This document shows positions 4,862 to 13,212 of a stretch of 33,942 nucleotides of DNA, one piece after another. This DNA comes from Bacteroidaceae bacterium (lineage in GTDB: Bacteria > Bacteroidota > Bacteroidia > Bacteroidales > Bacteroidaceae). The stretch lies in NCBI GenBank assembly GCA_017503645.1, contig JAFVSR010000104.1, positions 1 to 33,942 on the forward strand, read 5' to 3'. A program made the translations under genes and the position numbers. Each line of letters begins with the position of its first letter. Position 1 is the first letter of the stretch. Under the pieces are notes generated by a model, which saw nothing but the letters and a program-made list of their open reading frames with translations, was not told where the DNA came from and did not search any database.

Positions 4862-6985
4862 ATGAATAAAGGAGTAACAATTATGGCAGCAATGGCACTA
4901 TCGGGGATGATGCTGACCGGATGCAACGGCGCAGGCAGCGAGGAAAGCCCCGCAGTAATAGGCAAATCGGATATAAAAATAGAGGGTGGGCTTATGACAC
5001 CCGAGGCCCTGTGGGCTATGGGCCGCGTGGGCAGCCCCGCCGCATCGCCCGACGGCAACAAAATACTTTATGGCATAAGCTACTACAGTGTGGAGCAGAA
5101 CAAGAGCCACCACACCATAAACATTATGAATGCCGACGGCAGCGATAAAACACTGCTCACCACTACCGCAGCCAACGAAACCGGCGCTACGTGGATAAAG
5201 GGCGGCAGCAAGATAGCCTTCCTATCCAACGAGGGCGGCAGCAACCAGGTGTGGGAGATGAACCCCGACGGCAGCGGGCGTAAGCAGCTCACCAACAGCA
5301 GCAGCGACATCGAGGGCTTCCTTTTCTCGCCCTGCGAGGCAAAGGTCATTCTCATAAAGCGCGTGAAGATAAAAGATAGCACTGCCGACCTTCACCCCGA
5401 CCTTGCACAGTCCAAAGGCATAATCATAAACGACCTTATGTACAAGCATTGGGACGAGTGGATAACCGATGCACCCCACCCCTTTGTTGCCAACTTCGAC
5501 GGCAACAGCATAGACGAGGGCAGCGACCTGCTCGAGGGCACTGCATACGACTGCCCCAACCGCCCCTTTGGCGGCGTGGAACAGCTTGCCTGGAGTGCCG
5601 ACTCAAAGCAGATAGCATACTCCTGCATTAAAAAGACCGGTGTAGCCTACACACTGAGCACCGACACCGACATATTCCTCTATAACACCGAGGACGGCAC
5701 CACACAAAACCTGTGCAAGCTCAGCAGCGAAACGGCTAACTACGGATATGACACCACACCTACATTCTCGCCCGACGGCACCCACCTCGCGTGGCTCAGT
5801 ATGAAACGCGACGGCTATGAGAGCGACCGCAACCGCCTATGCATAATGAACATAGCCACAGGCAAGCAGCGCTATCTCACCGACGACGAGCAGGGCCGCC
5901 CCACATTCGACAGCAACGTAGATTCTTACTGCTGGGCCAACGACAGCAAGAGCCTCTATTTTGTGGGCACCTGGCACGGTACCACACAGGTGTATAACGT
6001 AACCACCGGGGGCACACTCACCAAGCTCACCGACGGCGACTACGACTACACATCGGTGGCCACCACGCCCGCCGGCACACTGCTTGTGAACCGCAGTTCT
6101 ATGAGTGCACCAAGCGACATATATTCAATAGACAACAACGGCAGCATTGCACAGCTCACAGCCGAGAACGAGCATATACTCTCACAGATAGCCATAGGTA
6201 AGGTGGAGGCGCGCTGGTGCAAGACCTTCGACGGCAAGGACCTGCACTCGTGGGTGATATATCCCCCGCACTTCGACGCAAATAAAAAGTACCCCACCCT
6301 GCTATTCTGCAATGGTGGTCCGCAATCGCCGGTGAGCCAGTTCTGGAGCTACCGTTGGAATATGCAGATAATGGCAGCCAACGGCTACATAGTGATAGCC
6401 ACCAACCGCCGCGGCCTCCCCGGTTTCGGTTCGGAGTGGAACGAACAGATAAGCGGCGACTACGGCGGCGCCTGTATGAAGGACCTCTTTGCCGCCATTG
6501 ACGATATTGCCCGCGAGGATTATGTAGATAGCGACCGCCTTGGTTGCGTGGGTGCCAGCTTTGGCGGCTACACAGCAATGTGGATGATGGGGCACCACAA
6601 CAAGCGTTTCAAGGCATTCATTGCACACGACGGCTTCTTTAATATGGAGCAGCAGTACTTCGAAACCGAGGAGAGCTGGTTCACCAACTGGGATTTGGGC
6701 GGCGCACCCTACGAAAAGAGCGCACAGGTGCAGAAATCGTTTGCCAACTCGCCCCACAAGTTCGTGGAGAACTGGGACACACCCATTCTGCTCATCCACG
6801 GCGACCGCGACTACCGCATACTCTCGTCGCAGTCTATGGCCGCCTTCAATGCCGCCAAGCTCAAGGGTGTGCCTGCGCAACTGCTCCTGTTCCCCGACGA
6901 GAACCACTGGGTGCTGAAACCCCAGAACGGCATTCTGTGGCAGCGCACATACTTTGCCTGGCTTGATAAATGGTTGAAGAAATAG
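4862..6985 (+). CDS. Lipoprotein prolyl oligopeptidase, S9 family (DPP-like)
   Basis: A serine peptidase of 707 residues that most likely trims peptides outside the cytoplasm. The N-terminus is a lipoprotein signal with lipobox LTGC and lipidated Cys21. Residues about 35-430 hold repeated TolB/PD40-type beta-propeller blades (SPDGNKILYG, SPDGTHLAWL and similar). The C-terminal alpha/beta-hydrolase domain has the nucleophile Ser566 in GASFGGY, Asp650 in HGDRD and His682 in DENHW, so the triad is complete. Length and layout match dipeptidyl- and acyl-peptidases of the S9B/S9C groups, and the exact substrate preference is not decidable here. It appears to be a single-gene unit with its own promoter. 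No terminator is clear; a palindromic repeat begins 6 bases after the stop. Confidence 0.92.
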   Translation: MNKGVTIMAAMALSGMMLTGCNGAGSEESPAVIGKSDIKIEGGLMTPEALWAMGRVGSPAASPDGNKILYGISYYSVEQNKSHHTINIMNADGSDKTLLTTTAANETGATWIKGGSKIAFLSNEGGSNQVWEMNPDGSGRKQLTNSSSDIEGFLFSPCEAKVILIKRVKIKDSTADLHPDLAQSKGIIINDLMYKHWDEWITDAPHPFVANFDGNSIDEGSDLLEGTAYDCPNRPFGGVEQLAWSADSKQIAYSCIKKTGVAYTLSTDTDIFLYNTEDGTTQNLCKLSSETANYGYDTTPTFSPDGTHLAWLSMKRDGYESDRNRLCIMNIATGKQRYLTDDEQGRPTFDSNVDSYCWANDSKSLYFVGTWHGTTQVYNVTTGGTLTKLTDGDYDYTSVATTPAGTLLVNRSSMSAPSDIYSIDNNGSIAQLTAENEHILSQIAIGKVEARWCKTFDGKDLHSWVIYPPHFDANKKYPTLLFCNGGPQSPVSQFWSYRWNMQIMAANGYIVIATNRRGLPGFGSEWNEQISGDYGGACMKDLFAAIDDIAREDYVDSDRLGCVGASFGGYTAMWMMGHHNKRFKAFIAHDGFFNMEQQYFETEESWFTNWDLGGAPYEKSAQVQKSFANSPHKFVENWDTPILLIHGDRDYRILSSQSMAAFNAAKLKGVPAQLLLFPDENHWVLKPQNGILWQRTYFAWLDKWLKK

Positions 6986-6991
6986 GTAAAG

Positions 6992-7025
6992 CAAACGAGA
7001 TATCTCACATACGTTTGATATGACA
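6992..7025 (-). repeat. Palindrome half, type C, first copy
   Basis: This 34-base unit runs from CAAACGAGATATCTC to GATATGACA and recurs at 7581-7614 and 7672-7705 with one difference. Its reverse complement aligns with the type A half-sites (GTCAT...GAAC...GAG...ATCT), so it is a diverged inverted partner of them. Here the matching left half is absent, suggesting a truncated or rearranged copy directly after the peptidase gene. Confidence 0.75.
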
Positions 7026-7042
7026 AATTCAAAACAAATTGT

Positions 7043-7111
7043 GTCATTGGTTCATTTTGCTTTTGCCACCCGCGATTCACGCGACTAATGGCAGCAAAAC
7101 TCACCGATAAC
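7043..7111. repeat. Imperfect palindrome between peptidase and GIY-YIG genes
   Basis: A 69-base imperfect inverted repeat runs from GTCATTGGTT to CCGATAAC. Inner paired blocks are TTTTGC/GCAAAA, TGCCA/TGGCA and CGCG/CGCG around an ATTCA loop. Its ends again resemble GTCAT...ATGAC, so it is probably a diverged member of the neighbouring repeat family. Confidence 0.55.
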
Positions 7112-7124
7112 AAAACAGAGTTTT

Positions 7125-7522
7125 GTCATTCCGAACCGAAGGGAGGAATCTAAAAAAATACGATTATGTTCAATGTTCATCAATACTGGGTTTATATAAT
7201 GTCAAATAAAAGTCGTAAAGTCTTATATATTGGCATTACCAACGATTTATACAGAAGATACATTGAACATAAAACAGGTATAGTTGAAGGATTTACAAAG
7301 AAATATAGATGTCATCATCTTATATATTTTGAGGAATATAATATTGTAGATGAGGCTATTGCACGCGAGAAAGAATTAAAAGGATGGAGAAGGGAGAAAA
7401 AAGAAAAACTTATAACCTTTTTTAATCCACTAAAAAGGAATTTAGCTGAAGATTTCGGATGGTAATGCAATACATATTATACCTTTTTTGAGATTCTTCC
7501 TCCTTACAGTCGTCAGAATGAC
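7125..7522 (+). mobile_element. Putative GIY-YIG element bounded by inverted repeats
   Basis: The left end at 7125-7151 starts GTCATTCCGAACC and ends GGAGGAATCT. The right end at 7491-7522 starts AGATTCTTCC and ends CAGAATGAC. The two are imperfect inverted copies, and with flanking bases they read TTTGTCATT...AATGACAAA. Between them lies only the GIY-YIG gene plus short A+T-rich spacers. The 83-bp unit at 7728-7810 has the same two ends without the gene. The structure is directly visible; mobility is inferred. Confidence 0.6.
7166..7465 (+). CDS. Small GIY-YIG endonuclease
   Basis: A 99-residue single-domain nuclease of the GIY-YIG fold (the stand-alone type related to COG2827/YhbQ). Visible motifs are VYIM at 9-12 (the GIY position), YIG at 21-23, the Arg30/Arg31 pair, YIEH at 32-35, the metal-binding glutamate region REKELKGW at 67-74, and a C-terminal FNPLKRNLAEDF. 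No DNA-binding domain or signal peptide is attached. The gene is visibly much more A+T-rich than both neighbours, which suggests separate ancestry. It sits between inverted repeats that also occur nearby without a gene. A GGAGG lies 20 bases upstream inside the repeat, too far away to act as a ribosome-binding site. Biological substrate unknown; a role in spreading or maintaining the repeats is inference. Confidence 0.9.
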   Translation: MFNVHQYWVYIMSNKSRKVLYIGITNDLYRRYIEHKTGIVEGFTKKYRCHHLIYFEEYNIVDEAIAREKELKGWRREKKEKLITFFNPLKRNLAEDFGW

Positions 7523-7545
7523 AAAGTGGCAACAAACACAATTTT

Positions 7546-7727
7546 GTCATTCCGAACCGAAGGGAGGAATCTGAAAAGGCCAAACGAGATATCTCACATA
7601 CGTTCGATATGACAAACGGTGTCGAAACACAGTTATGTCATTCCGAACTGAAGGGAGGAATCTGAAAAGGCCAAACGAGATATCTCACATACGTTCGATA
7701 TGACAAACGGTGTCGAAACAGAGTTTT
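7546..7727. repeat. 91-bp tandem repeat of palindromic units (two copies)
   Basis: Copies at 7546-7636 and 7637-7727 differ at only three positions. Each contains a type A half-site (27 bases, GTCATTCCGAAC...GGAATCT), a GAAAAGGCC spacer, an inverted type C half-site ending ATATGAC, and a linker (AAACGGTGTCGAAACA...). A and C within a copy can pair into an imperfect hairpin of about 68 bases. A third type A half-site follows at 7728. Near-identity indicates recent duplication. Confidence 0.85.
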
Positions 7728-7810
7728 GTCATTCCGAACTGAAGGGAGGAATCTGAAGAACAAAGAAAATAACATTTGAGATTCTTCCTCCTTGCAGTCG
7801 TCAGAATGAC
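7728..7810. repeat. 83-bp gene-less copy of the GIY-YIG element (MITE-like)
   Basis: A type A half-site at 7728-7754 is followed by 24 A+T-rich bases and by an inverted half-site at 7779-7810. The latter differs from the right end of the GIY-YIG element by one base (TTGCAG here, TTACAG there). Both right ends are also preceded by TTGAG. It therefore has the element's two ends and none of its coding sequence. The MFS gene starts 65 bases later. I see no gene in 7466-7874. Confidence 0.75.
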
Positions 7811-7874
7811 AAACAAGACAAACAATATATACAAATATAAAATAACATATAAATAAAATAAAAACATACACAAA

Positions 7875-9401
7875 ATGACAGTAACACAAAAAATTCAGAA
7901 AAAACTGAACGACTCGGCAGTGGCACGCTGGAGCGCACTTGCCATAGTATCGTTCACAATGATGATGGCCTACTTCTTCACCGATGTTATGGGGCCACTC
8001 GAAGCACCCCTTACCACTAAGGGCAAACTCGTATATTTCAACAACGGTTCATACCTTGCAGCCGACTCGCTTATGAAAGTGAGCACACAGGAAATAGCGT
8101 CGGCCGAGGATATTGTCGTGGGTAATGAATACACTATCAAATACACCGACAAGCAGAACACTCCACAGGAGGAGACCGTAAAGGTGACATCGGCCATCGA
8201 CGGCCTTGGATGGGGAAGCGACGACTACGGAATATTCTCGGGAGCATACGGCTACATCAACGTATTTCTGCTGATGCTCTTCTTTGGCGGAATAATACTC
8301 GACAAATGCGGAATACGTTTCACAGGTCTTATGAGCACCTCGCTTATGTTCATCGGTGCAATGATTAAATGGTATGCAGTGAGCCGAGGATTCGAAGGCG
8401 AGGTATTCGGGCTGCCCACACAGGTAGCCATCGCTTGCCTGGGCTTTGCCATCTACGGTGTGGGCTGCGAAATTGCCGGCATCACCGTAACCAAGGTTAT
8501 TGCCAAGTGGTTCACAGGCCACGAGCTTGCCCTTGCAATGGGCTTGCAGGTGGCTCTTGCACGTGTGGGAACAGCCTGCGCACTATTCTTTGCACTGCCA
8601 CTGGCACAGCACTTCGGCATAGTATCGGCACCCGTTATGATAGGTGCATCCACCCTGTGCATAGGTATGCTTTCGTACATCGTATATTGCGTGATGGACA
8701 AGAAACTGGATGCATCGCAGAGCGCTACCGAAGGCGAGGCCGACAGCGAGGAGCAGTTCAAGATGAGCGACCTCAAGGTCATCTTCTGCAACAAGGGCTT
8801 CTGGCTCATCACACTGCTGTGCCTTATGTTCTATTCGGCAGTGTTCCCCTTCCTCAAGTTTGCCACCAACCTTATGATTATAAAATATGAGGTGAGCCCC
8901 AGCCTCGCAGGTATAATCCCCGGATTGCTACCCTTTGGCACCATACTGCTCACTCCCATATTTGGCTCTATGTACGACCGTATGGGCAAGGGAGCCACGC
9001 TTATGCTCATTGGTTCGGCTCTGCTCACCGTGGTGCACATACTGTTTGCACTACCCATTTTGAATGTATGGTGGTTTGCTGTGATTGTGATGATACTGCT
9101 TGGCAATGCCTTCTCGCTTGTGCCGTCGGCTATGTGGCCCTCGGTACCCAAAATCATCCCTATGAAACAGCTGGGCTCGGCCTACGCCATAATATTCTAC
9201 ATACAGAACATCGGCCTCTCTATGGTACCTGTGCTCATCGGTAATGTAATACAGAGCAACACCGTAAACGGAACAACCGACTACACCGCCCCTATGGCAA
9301 TCTTCGCCTTCTTTGGCGTGGTGGCAGTCATCATTTCGCTGCTGCTCAAAGGAGCCGACAAGAAGTACAACTACGGGCTTGAGCAAAAGAATCAAAAGTA
9401 A
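7875..9401 (+). CDS. Major facilitator superfamily transporter
   Basis: An inner-membrane permease of 508 residues with about 12 transmembrane segments; the substrate is unknown. The first helix (about 19-40) is followed by an unusual soluble stretch of about 85 residues (40-124, including VVGNEYTIKYTDK) before helix 2, which should face the periplasm. MFS motif A appears as GGIILDKCGIRFTG at 138-151 after helix 2, and again in the second half as GSMYDRMGKG. The central cytoplasmic loop (about 273-305) is acidic (EGEADSEEQF). The start ATG follows a long A-rich leader with no clear -7 box. A long perfect hairpin closes the gene. Members with this N-terminal insert seem to be a Bacteroidales type, from memory. 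Confidence 0.85.
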   Translation: MTVTQKIQKKLNDSAVARWSALAIVSFTMMMAYFFTDVMGPLEAPLTTKGKLVYFNNGSYLAADSLMKVSTQEIASAEDIVVGNEYTIKYTDKQNTPQEETVKVTSAIDGLGWGSDDYGIFSGAYGYINVFLLMLFFGGIILDKCGIRFTGLMSTSLMFIGAMIKWYAVSRGFEGEVFGLPTQVAIACLGFAIYGVGCEIAGITVTKVIAKWFTGHELALAMGLQVALARVGTACALFFALPLAQHFGIVSAPVMIGASTLCIGMLSYIVYCVMDKKLDASQSATEGEADSEEQFKMSDLKVIFCNKGFWLITLLCLMFYSAVFPFLKFATNLMIIKYEVSPSLAGIIPGLLPFGTILLTPIFGSMYDRMGKGATLMLIGSALLTVVHILFALPILNVWWFAVIVMILLGNAFSLVPSAMWPSVPKIIPMKQLGSAYAIIFYIQNIGLSMVPVLIGNVIQSNTVNGTTDYTAPMAIFAFFGVVAVIISLLLKGADKKYNYGLEQKNQK

Positions 9402-12219: not shown

Positions 12220-13212
12220 CTACCTGTTTATACTGCACCCCTGCATAGAGAAACCACGCAAGAGGTCGCCAATGGGCATACGCTTTTTGCCCGGAATCTG
12301 CACCGAAAGCAGTGATATGTAACCACCCGTCACCGCCACTTTGGCATATTTCTTGCCATCGGTGAGCAAAGTGCCCGCCTCGTGATTGTGGGCGGCTACC
12401 TCCTTGGCCACCTCATATACCTTTATGGGGAGAATGGCGCCCGTGGCATCGCACAGTTCAAACCAGGCTGCGGGATATGGCGACATACCGCGCACAAAAT
12501 CGTAAACAGCGGTGCAGGGCTTTTCCCAATCGATGCGACAGGTGTCGCGGAATATTTTGGGTGCGGGGCGCAAATCGCTCTCTTGTGCAAACATCTGCTG
12601 CTGAGGCTGTGCTGTGGCCGTGCCGTTCACAATAGCCTCAACGGTGCGCAGCACGGTTTCACCACCCTGCAGCATAAGTTTATCGTGCAGGGTACCGGCA
12701 GTGTCGCACTCCTCTATCGCCACTACATCGCGGAAGATGACGTCGCCCGTGTCTATCTCGTGCTTCAGGAAGAAGGTGGTGACACCCGTTTCCTTGTCGC
12801 CGTTTATGATTGCCCAATTTATGGGCGCTGCACCGCGATACTGCGGCAGCAACGATGCGTGCAGGTTGAATGTACCCAGGCGAGGCATATTCCACACGCT
12901 CTCGGGCAGCATACGGAAGGCCACAACTATCTGCAAGTCGGCACGCCAGGCGGCAAGGGCTGTTTGGAAATCCTCGCTCTTGAGCGATTCGGGTTGCAGC
13001 ACGGGCAGCCCCTCCTGCACTGCATACTGCTTCACAGGGCTCATAAGCAGCTGGTTGCCGCGTTTGCTTATCACCTTATCGGGCATTGTGACAACGCCCA
13101 CCACCTCGTAACCGCAGGTGGCGCAGGCACGCTGTTTTTCGAGCAGACGCCTTAACGGCTCCACGGCAAAATCGGGCGTGCCAAGATATACGATTCTTAA
13201 TTTATCGTTCAT
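12220..13212 (-). CDS. fmt: Methionyl-tRNA formyltransferase
   Basis: This enzyme formylates initiator Met-tRNA using 10-formyltetrahydrofolate. The 330-residue protein opens with RIVYLGTPDFAVEPL. Its active site matches E. coli Fmt with an offset of eight residues: Asn116 and His118 in FNLHASLLPQYRGAAPINWAI, and Asp154 in HEIDTGD. The SKRGNQL loop at 49-55 corresponds to the tRNA-binding insert. The C-terminal OB-like domain covers about 215-325 and ends LLRGFSMQGC. It is 15 bases downstream of the chloride-channel gene and is the last gene of the run. No def gene accompanies it here, unlike the common def-fmt pair of other bacteria. Confidence 0.95.
   Translation of the reverse strand: MNDKLRIVYLGTPDFAVEPLRRLLEKQRACATCGYEVVGVVTMPDKVISKRGNQLLMSPVKQYAVQEGLPVLQPESLKSEDFQTALAAWRADLQIVVAFRMLPESVWNMPRLGTFNLHASLLPQYRGAAPINWAIINGDKETGVTTFFLKHEIDTGDVIFRDVVAIEECDTAGTLHDKLMLQGGETVLRTVEAIVNGTATAQPQQQMFAQESDLRPAPKIFRDTCRIDWEKPCTAVYDFVRGMSPYPAAWFELCDATGAILPIKVYEVAKEVAAHNHEAGTLLTDGKKYAKVAVTGGYISLLSVQIPGKKRMPIGDLLRGFSMQGCSINR

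Follow-up and report, generated by a model that had tools for sequence, protein, structure and literature searches.

The stretch of DNA analysed here, hereafter the window, is a contig of 33,942 nucleotides (GenBank JAFVSR010000104.1; our contig C3) from the draft genome of a Bacteroidaceae bacterium (assembly GCA_017503645.1; 2.33 Mb, 108 contigs, 86% complete). Our subject is an intergenic stretch of 889 bp in this window, which lies between a putative S9 peptidase gene (4862-6985) and a putative MFS transporter gene (7875-9401), both named from a reading of their own sequences. It holds a single gene, encoding a GIY-YIG nuclease of 99 amino acids (7166-7465, forward strand, 99 codons), together with nine tagged repeats of three types (6998-7811), which are described here as repetitive extragenic palindromes (REPs) and designated R, r' and r''. 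Their order is r'' [R-gene-r'] [R-r''] [R-r''] [R-r'].

The nuclease gene is indeed the only gene between two inverted repeats, as the original prediction, made from the sequence alone, had stated. The left end of the gene unit is a copy of R (7124-7151, forward strand), with a TGTC tag, a 5-bp stem starting with AT and a terminal ATCT, and the right end is a copy of r' (7491-7523, reverse strand), with its tag outward; the ends predicted earlier were right to within a base or two, and the bounds given here include the TGTC tag. A gene-less unit with the same two end types, 24 bp apart, had been placed at 7728-7810 with a length of 83 bp; its end types are identical to those of the gene unit, with one base changed in each end, while its bounds are 7727-7811 and its length is 85 bp. 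These observations are real, but the locus is richer than they implied. A second copy of R (7545-7572, forward strand) directly, if imperfectly, repeats the left end of the gene unit over 44 bp and is paired with an r'' of the TGTCATATC type (7587-7614, reverse strand), a third copy of R with one base changed (7636-7663, forward strand) has its own r'' partner (7678-7705, reverse strand), and a lone REP of the r'' type lies upstream of the gene unit (6998-7025, reverse strand). The gene-less units are spaced by a 91-bp step. Neither end of the unit is a copy of the other: the two have TGTCATTC...GAATCT in common (13-nt inverted arms, 92%), and their interiors are unlike.

The nuclease

The predicted protein consists of the catalytic domain only. 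It matches the GIY-YIG domain (Pfam PF01541) with 56.3 bits, above the curated cut-off of 22.6, and in 73 sequences the nuclease residues G23, R31, H35, E68 and N87 are invariant and Y10 and Y21 are at least 90% conserved; with the domain and the catalytic residues kept, it belongs to the GIY-YIG superfamily. An AlphaFold2 model of the 99 residues has a pLDDT of 95. The gene is intact and under purifying selection, with a dN/dS of 0.09 between the window nuclease and its orthologue in genome G158, and of 0.07-0.09 in the three nuclease gene pairs (of seven tried) that were neither near-identical nor saturated. Its closest named relatives are found in Bacteroidaceae metagenome-assembled genomes (MAGs).

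No separate DNA-binding domain is present in the 99 residues, which hold one Pfam domain. Defence families gave no match at the locus, NCBIfam gave none, and PHROGs gave weak matches only, the best being to a GIY-YIG homing endonuclease family (E 0.002). No RNA or intron family was found at 6900-7900, where the only matches were to miRNA families and far below the cut-off, and phage relatives are few, namely two records of one phage (E 1e-5, 32% identity).

Form and dispersal of the repeats

All nine repeats of the locus carry the TGTC tag. Their plan is TGTC, AT, three further stem bases, GA, a loop, three stem bases and ATCT, the GA being replaced by AA in the lone copy at 6998. The stems (ATTCC, ATTCT and ATATC) have 5 contiguous pairs, the loops are of 12-17 nt and the tail is CT. 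Across repeats, the conserved elements are the TGTC tag, the stem that starts with AT and whose next three pairs covary, the GA, and ATCT or ATCC.

In the source genome a relaxed pattern built on this plan gave 31 matches and a looser one 76, each compared with 0 in a reversed control, so that the occurrence of the repeats is beyond chance. The original prediction had proposed a search with its 27-base left end and 32-base right end, but the conserved part does not lie in these literal sequences. When one position is allowed to vary, the exact left end matches without mismatch only the four copies of this locus, and elsewhere in the genome two places with 3 mismatches; a literal search would therefore have failed. 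The right-end type is dispersed, recurring twice on contig C16 and once on contig C95, and it was the relaxing of the search to the tag, the stem and ATCT that gave the dispersal signal.

The pairing of the stem is kept well beyond the window. A scan of the 80 named loci (see below) demanded the ends and the GA and left pairing free; all three variable positions pair in 167 of 199 pattern matches, compared with a mean of 42 and a maximum of 58 when the right triplets were redealt among the matches. The corresponding counts, also far over the shuffled ones, are 78 of 82 (shuffled mean 27) in loci of the genus that were not fetched by the repeat pattern, and 60 of 69 (shuffled mean 23) in loci of a second bacterial class. 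Neighbouring repeats in the source genome less than 100 bp apart have their tags out in 17 cases, in in 8 and on the same strand in 1, with spacers of 3-24 bp in the tags-out pairs (30 loci picked by the repeat pattern, 48 distinct repeats). Whole pairs fold better as DNA than single repeats do: the pair at 7727-7811 forms a single hairpin (-16 kcal/mol, z -3.9), and that at 7545-7614 reaches -8.4 kcal/mol (z -1.6).

At four of the named loci (L095, L096, L108 and L119) the repeats beside the homologue are longer, with a total length of up to 46 nt; they keep the tag and the 5-bp stem, and the loop seems free to vary. A further repeat of ~80-110 bp lies just upstream of R at several sites, whether the nuclease gene is present or not (~7040-7120 in the window, ~1353-1446 in L036, and the S9/MFS gap in L069, L070 and L075); it begins GTCAT, its start is like GTCATTGG and its end like AACTC(A/G)CCGATAACAAAA, the two ends looking complementary by eye.

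Association of the nuclease family with the repeats

A profile scan of public genomes confirmed 517 loci, the best 80 of which are the named loci. They represent 13 named phylum-level groups (assigned by us from the record titles) and two unclassified bacteria, and include close relatives; 79 are without stops or unknown residues, of which 72, less than 90% alike, were kept for alignment. The repeat finder asked for a 5-bp contiguous stem and the tag [CTG][GC]TC. With this finder, a repeat was found within 200 bp of the nuclease gene in 61 of the 80 loci and outward tags on both sides of the gene in 37, compared with a repeat in 45 of 1685 control windows and at 15 of 106 control open reading frames (other genes of at least 120 aa) in the same loci. 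At least one match near the gene was found in 11 of the 13 groups, the two others, Omnitrophota and Eremiobacterota, having one locus each. Five of the named loci equal copies of the genus treated below; without them the counts are 56 of 75 near a repeat and 32 of 75 with outward tags on both sides. Ten of the 19 loci without a finder match were inspected, and at least six (L088, L094, L098, L110, L129 and L139) have repeats recognisable by eye which break one finder rule and were not counted. An earlier finder, which required a stem of six or more pairs and allowed one mismatch, had given a repeat upstream in 12, downstream in 13 and outward on both sides in 6 of the 80 loci, and in 53 of the 1685 control windows; it was replaced because it missed 5-bp stems. 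The only remaining finder match in the window (13039-13073) has a different tag and lies inside coding sequence.

In the second class, that of a Vreelandella genome, the nuclease family was found in 138 of 369 genomes (E 1e-12), and in 26 of the 30 top-ranked loci a repeat lies no more than 200 bp from the gene, in several cases one of the dRS3 form; one of these loci also belongs to the set of 80, which leaves 25 of 29 new loci. Four genomes of this class search (G570, G376, G308 and G585) gave four to seven nuclease-profile matches each, some of them fragments. A loose repeat pattern was found in all 50 genomes scanned for it, which carry 50 of the 80 named loci; most of them greatly exceed the reversed control, but G237, G248, G255, G258 and G276 have only four or five matches. 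The link between the GIY-YIG gene and the REP family, which had been proposed earlier by analogy with REP/RAYT, extends far beyond the window, and homologues usually adjoin ends of this kind.

Within the genus of the source genome, the nuclease gene is found in 11 of 44 genomes, and the median number of repeats is 73 in carriers vs 9 in the others (Mann-Whitney p 0.0004). In a sample of 201 genomes of the family, at least 25 repeats are present in 6 of 10 carriers vs 13 of 191 others (Fisher p 5e-5). Both statistics ignore relatedness and genome completeness. The repeats are commoner in carriers and not equally common in genomes without the gene, although repeat-rich genomes in which no gene was detected do exist.

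Gene-bearing and gene-free sites

The genus holds 14 nuclease copies at seven sites with unlike flanks: site A, between the S9 peptidase and MFS genes, in the source genome (G000) and G158; site B, between aroA and pheA, in G101, G200 and G229; site C in G200 and G202; site D in G101 (split), G200 and G204; site E, assigned by its downstream flank, in G130 and G226; site F in G230; and site G in G219. Two copies are decayed, one by an internal TAG (G200, contig C97, L043) and the other by a split into two frames (G101, contig C66, L044/L046), as would be expected if the gene comes and goes.

Flank searches for sites A, B and C matched 38, 40 and 39 of the 44 genomes, and both flanking genes are present in 25, 30 and 26 of the 30 loci examined at each site. 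Among these two-flank loci the nuclease gene is present in 2, 3 and 2, respectively, and the rest are gene-free, which provides empty orthologous sites of the kind that the original prediction had named as support. The finder detected a repeat in 6 of 27 gene-free alleles at B and in 6 of 24 at C. At site B, the gene-free alleles of G231 and G206 have one R (with a base changed in G206), and the gene-bearing alleles of G101, G200 and G229 read R-gene-r'-R. At site C, the gene-free allele is a plain R-r pair in G220 and a similar, altered pair in G101, and the gene-bearing alleles of G200 and G202 read R-gene-R-r; the duplicated stretch here is 41-42 bp and seemingly includes bases outside R. 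A direct repeat of 32-44 bp, made up of a whole REP, flanks 9 of the 11 genus copies tested (L044, L045 and L050 of the 14 were not entered), the exceptions being site E, where it is weak, and the G204 copy at site D, which has none. The flanking direct repeats may have been left behind when the gene inserted at a repeat, but they could also have arisen as a repeat array grew in tandem.

At site A, the repeat and gene cassette (approximately 6986-7848) is absent from G116, whose flanking genes are 95% and 92% identical to those of the window, and from G210 (93% and 91%), where a clean intergenic gap of 22 and 24 bp, respectively, is found; in G158 (flanks 89% and 87%) the cassette is present, with 86% identity over the gene and its ends, and all four genomes compared are drafts. 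Because the G158 copy has diverged as its flanks did, the cassette was probably present before these four genomes diverged. With the cassette present in the distant G158 and absent from the nearer G116 and G210, a clean loss in the latter two, or replacement by a gene-free allele, fits better than a fresh gain.

Relation to known systems

In the original prediction no described system of this kind was known. For the repeats, however, a similar class had been described in 2013, the CGTC superfamily (Di Nocera 2013, PMC3733652), which includes dRS3 of Neisseria and RPE-6 and RPE-4 of Rickettsia. The superfamily has terminal CGTC, TGTC or CCTC, a stem with AT as its first residues, and paired inverted units, with a stem of 8-9 bp, a loop of 4-5 bp and a CCA-like tail. 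According to that paper its repeats "apparently lack a dedicated transposase"; no associated transposase genes are reported there, and the term GIY-YIG has 0 occurrences in the text. The window repeats have the TGTC tag, the stem starting with AT and the paired inverted units, but their stems are shorter, their loops longer and their tail is CT instead of CCA; repeats of relatives are at or near the published form at L123, L128, L135 and L142 and at the gamma loci L233, L253 and L254. Judged by these motifs, the window repeats appear closely related to the CGTC superfamily without being strict members of its families 1-4, in which they are not filed because stem and loop lengths differ.

The locus also recalls REP/RAYT systems (REPtrons) and REPINs, in which RAYT, an HUH tyrosine transposase, is tied to GTAG REPs (PMC3733652). 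A gene flanked by its own REPs, gene-less inverted pairs as likely miniatures and a tetranucleotide tag are common to both, but the one gene of the unit described here encodes a GIY-YIG nuclease, not an HUH transposase, and the tag is TGTC, not GTAG. With I-TevI and other GIY-YIG homing endonucleases the window protein shares the catalytic fold; unlike them it has no intron, no separate DNA-binding domain and many sites, and its gene lies between two intact open reading frames, not inside one. Among titles and the starts of abstracts, we found no literature tying a GIY-YIG gene to REPs or palindromic repeats, nor any account of a unit with the gene inside a repeat pair, several sites with gene-free alleles and a flanking direct duplication.

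The closest parallel comes from Neisseria. A homologue of the window nuclease in N. gonorrhoeae (38% identity over 89 aa, E 1e-21 pairwise) lies amid 16 dRS3 repeats in a 3267-bp locus, i.e. the window protein is homologous to a neisserial protein encoded in a repeat array. Two N. gonorrhoeae records (NZ_CP119140.1 and NZ_CP119142.1) are filed as plasmids at ~2.17 Mb, the size of the chromosome. We take this homologue to be the protein named Ssn (site-specific single-stranded nuclease), a Neisseria GIY-YIG nuclease which reportedly cuts single-stranded DNA at a repeated sequence termed NTS (Nature Communications, 2025); homologues with other sequences were reportedly tested in the same study. 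The PDB listings contain no entry named Ssn, an absence that carries no weight. Both are small GIY-YIG proteins with repeats around the gene. The window repeats differ from the gonococcal ones in having 5-bp instead of 8-bp stems and longer loops, the window gene lies inside a repeat pair, its presence and site vary within one genus, and cleavage of single-stranded DNA by its product is a prediction. If Ssn acts as reported, the window nuclease belongs to a known biochemical class and is a further, Bacteroidaceae member of an already known partnership of nuclease and repeat, with signs of mobility for which we found no account among those titles and abstract starts.

Discussion

We consider it likely that the window encodes a stand-alone GIY-YIG nuclease whose most probable substrate is the surrounding TGTC-tagged repeats, presumably as single strands. 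Directly observed are an intact gene under selection, its association with the repeats, the covarying stem pairs, several sites, gene-free sites and, in most genus copies tested, a direct duplication. The gene with its two outward-tagged repeats would be the gene-bearing version of the inverted repeat pair, and the many gene-less pairs would be its passive versions. The nuclease would nick or cut at repeats that are single-stranded on the lagging-strand template or in incoming DNA, a preference that we infer by analogy with the reported work on Ssn. Through repair that uses a different repeat copy as its source, or through reinsertion into a repeat, repeats and occasionally the gene would then be copied or deleted, with a repeat left directly duplicated around the gene. 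That the protein cuts these repeats, and that the cutting drives their spread, is how we would interpret the observations, and the related genomes compared suggest that the gene and the repeats are gained and lost jointly. We further put forward, tentatively and as something short of probable, that TGTC/CGTC-tagged REPs in Bacteria have their missing mobility factor in the GIY-YIG gene: a repeat pair with its own nuclease would be an autonomous element that inserts at existing repeats and duplicates them without a transposase, by cutting followed by repair, and the gene-less pairs of many genomes would be its miniatures.

Several observations weigh against the main reading, in which the nuclease acts on the repeats around it. 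The similarity of two proteins does not predict that of their hairpins (60 loci, rho 0.10, p 0.052; across groups rho 0.015, p 0.23), and the left and right repeats of one copy frequently differ. Repeats of this class adjoin the gene in most loci of both sets, but because of this lack of correlation a tight, cognate match of enzyme and repeat is unsupported. The three single window repeats that were folded as DNA are weak hairpins, no more stable than their shuffles (-1.3 to -1.8 kcal/mol, z 0.04 to 0.55). Gene-free alleles are mostly without a repeat (21 of 27 at B and 18 of 24 at C by the finder), and direct duplications are about as frequent as inverted ones in the named loci (12 vs 11 of 80; without the five genus copies, 9 vs 10 of 75). 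At site A, G116 and G210 hold no repeat, and it is the more distant G158 that holds the cassette. Some carriers have few repeats, namely G130 with 2 and G230 with 7 in the genus, and four of the ten family carriers with only 2, 2, 4 and 6 (among them G030 with 2, G096 with 4 and G160 with 6), while G116 and G222 have 103 repeats each and no detected nuclease gene, and the 13 repeat-rich genomes of the 191 in the family likewise have none detected; many of the genomes are draft MAGs, and repeats are poorly assembled in these. The earlier suggestion that the nuclease spreads or maintains the palindromes thus stands as regards the association and the gene-free alleles, but transposition is hypothetical, and site A fits loss or replacement better.

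Part of this evidence would suit a rather unlikely alternative, in which the gene is a passenger, i.e. a small gene, mobile or selfish, that is tolerated where intergenic regions are rich in repeats, and these repeats are not its substrate and spread otherwise, by recombination, slippage or other transposases. The lack of correlation between protein type and hairpin type and the repeat-rich genomes without the gene agree with this, as does the use of neisserial dRS3 by a filamentous phage integrase as well (PMC3898611). Against it stand the proximity of a repeat to 61 of 80 homologues, compared with 15 of the 106 control genes from those loci, and the outward orientation on both sides in 37 of the 80. 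It is improbable, in turn, that the pair has been domesticated as a barrier which mainly limits or shapes the uptake and recombination of foreign single-stranded DNA, the insertions being side effects. The purifying selection in three gene pairs and the Neisseria relative in its dRS3 array are in its favour, and Ssn is reported to have a barrier-like role of this sort in Neisseria; the patchy presence (11 of 44 genomes), the several sites and the split G101 copy, on the other hand, look mobile and not like a host function that is kept. A free-standing homing endonuclease aimed at a site in a host gene, with the repeats irrelevant, is very improbable given seven sites with unlike flanks in one genus, a 99-residue protein without an extra DNA-binding domain, no intron family at 6900-7900 and few phage relatives.

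Conclusions

REP-like hairpins tagged with CGTC or TGTC are found in Neisseria, in Rickettsia and as far afield as gut Bacteroidales, and no enzyme could be assigned to them in the survey of 2013. Their association with one nuclease family has now been measured over many bacterial groups, and defined gene-free and gene-bearing alleles are available in one genus. If the nuclease does act on these repeats, long-orphaned repeats would gain an enzyme partner, and the question of how they spread becomes one that can be tested at the bench with known sequences. The findings also suggest that a plain nuclease could serve as a mobility factor without being a transposase.
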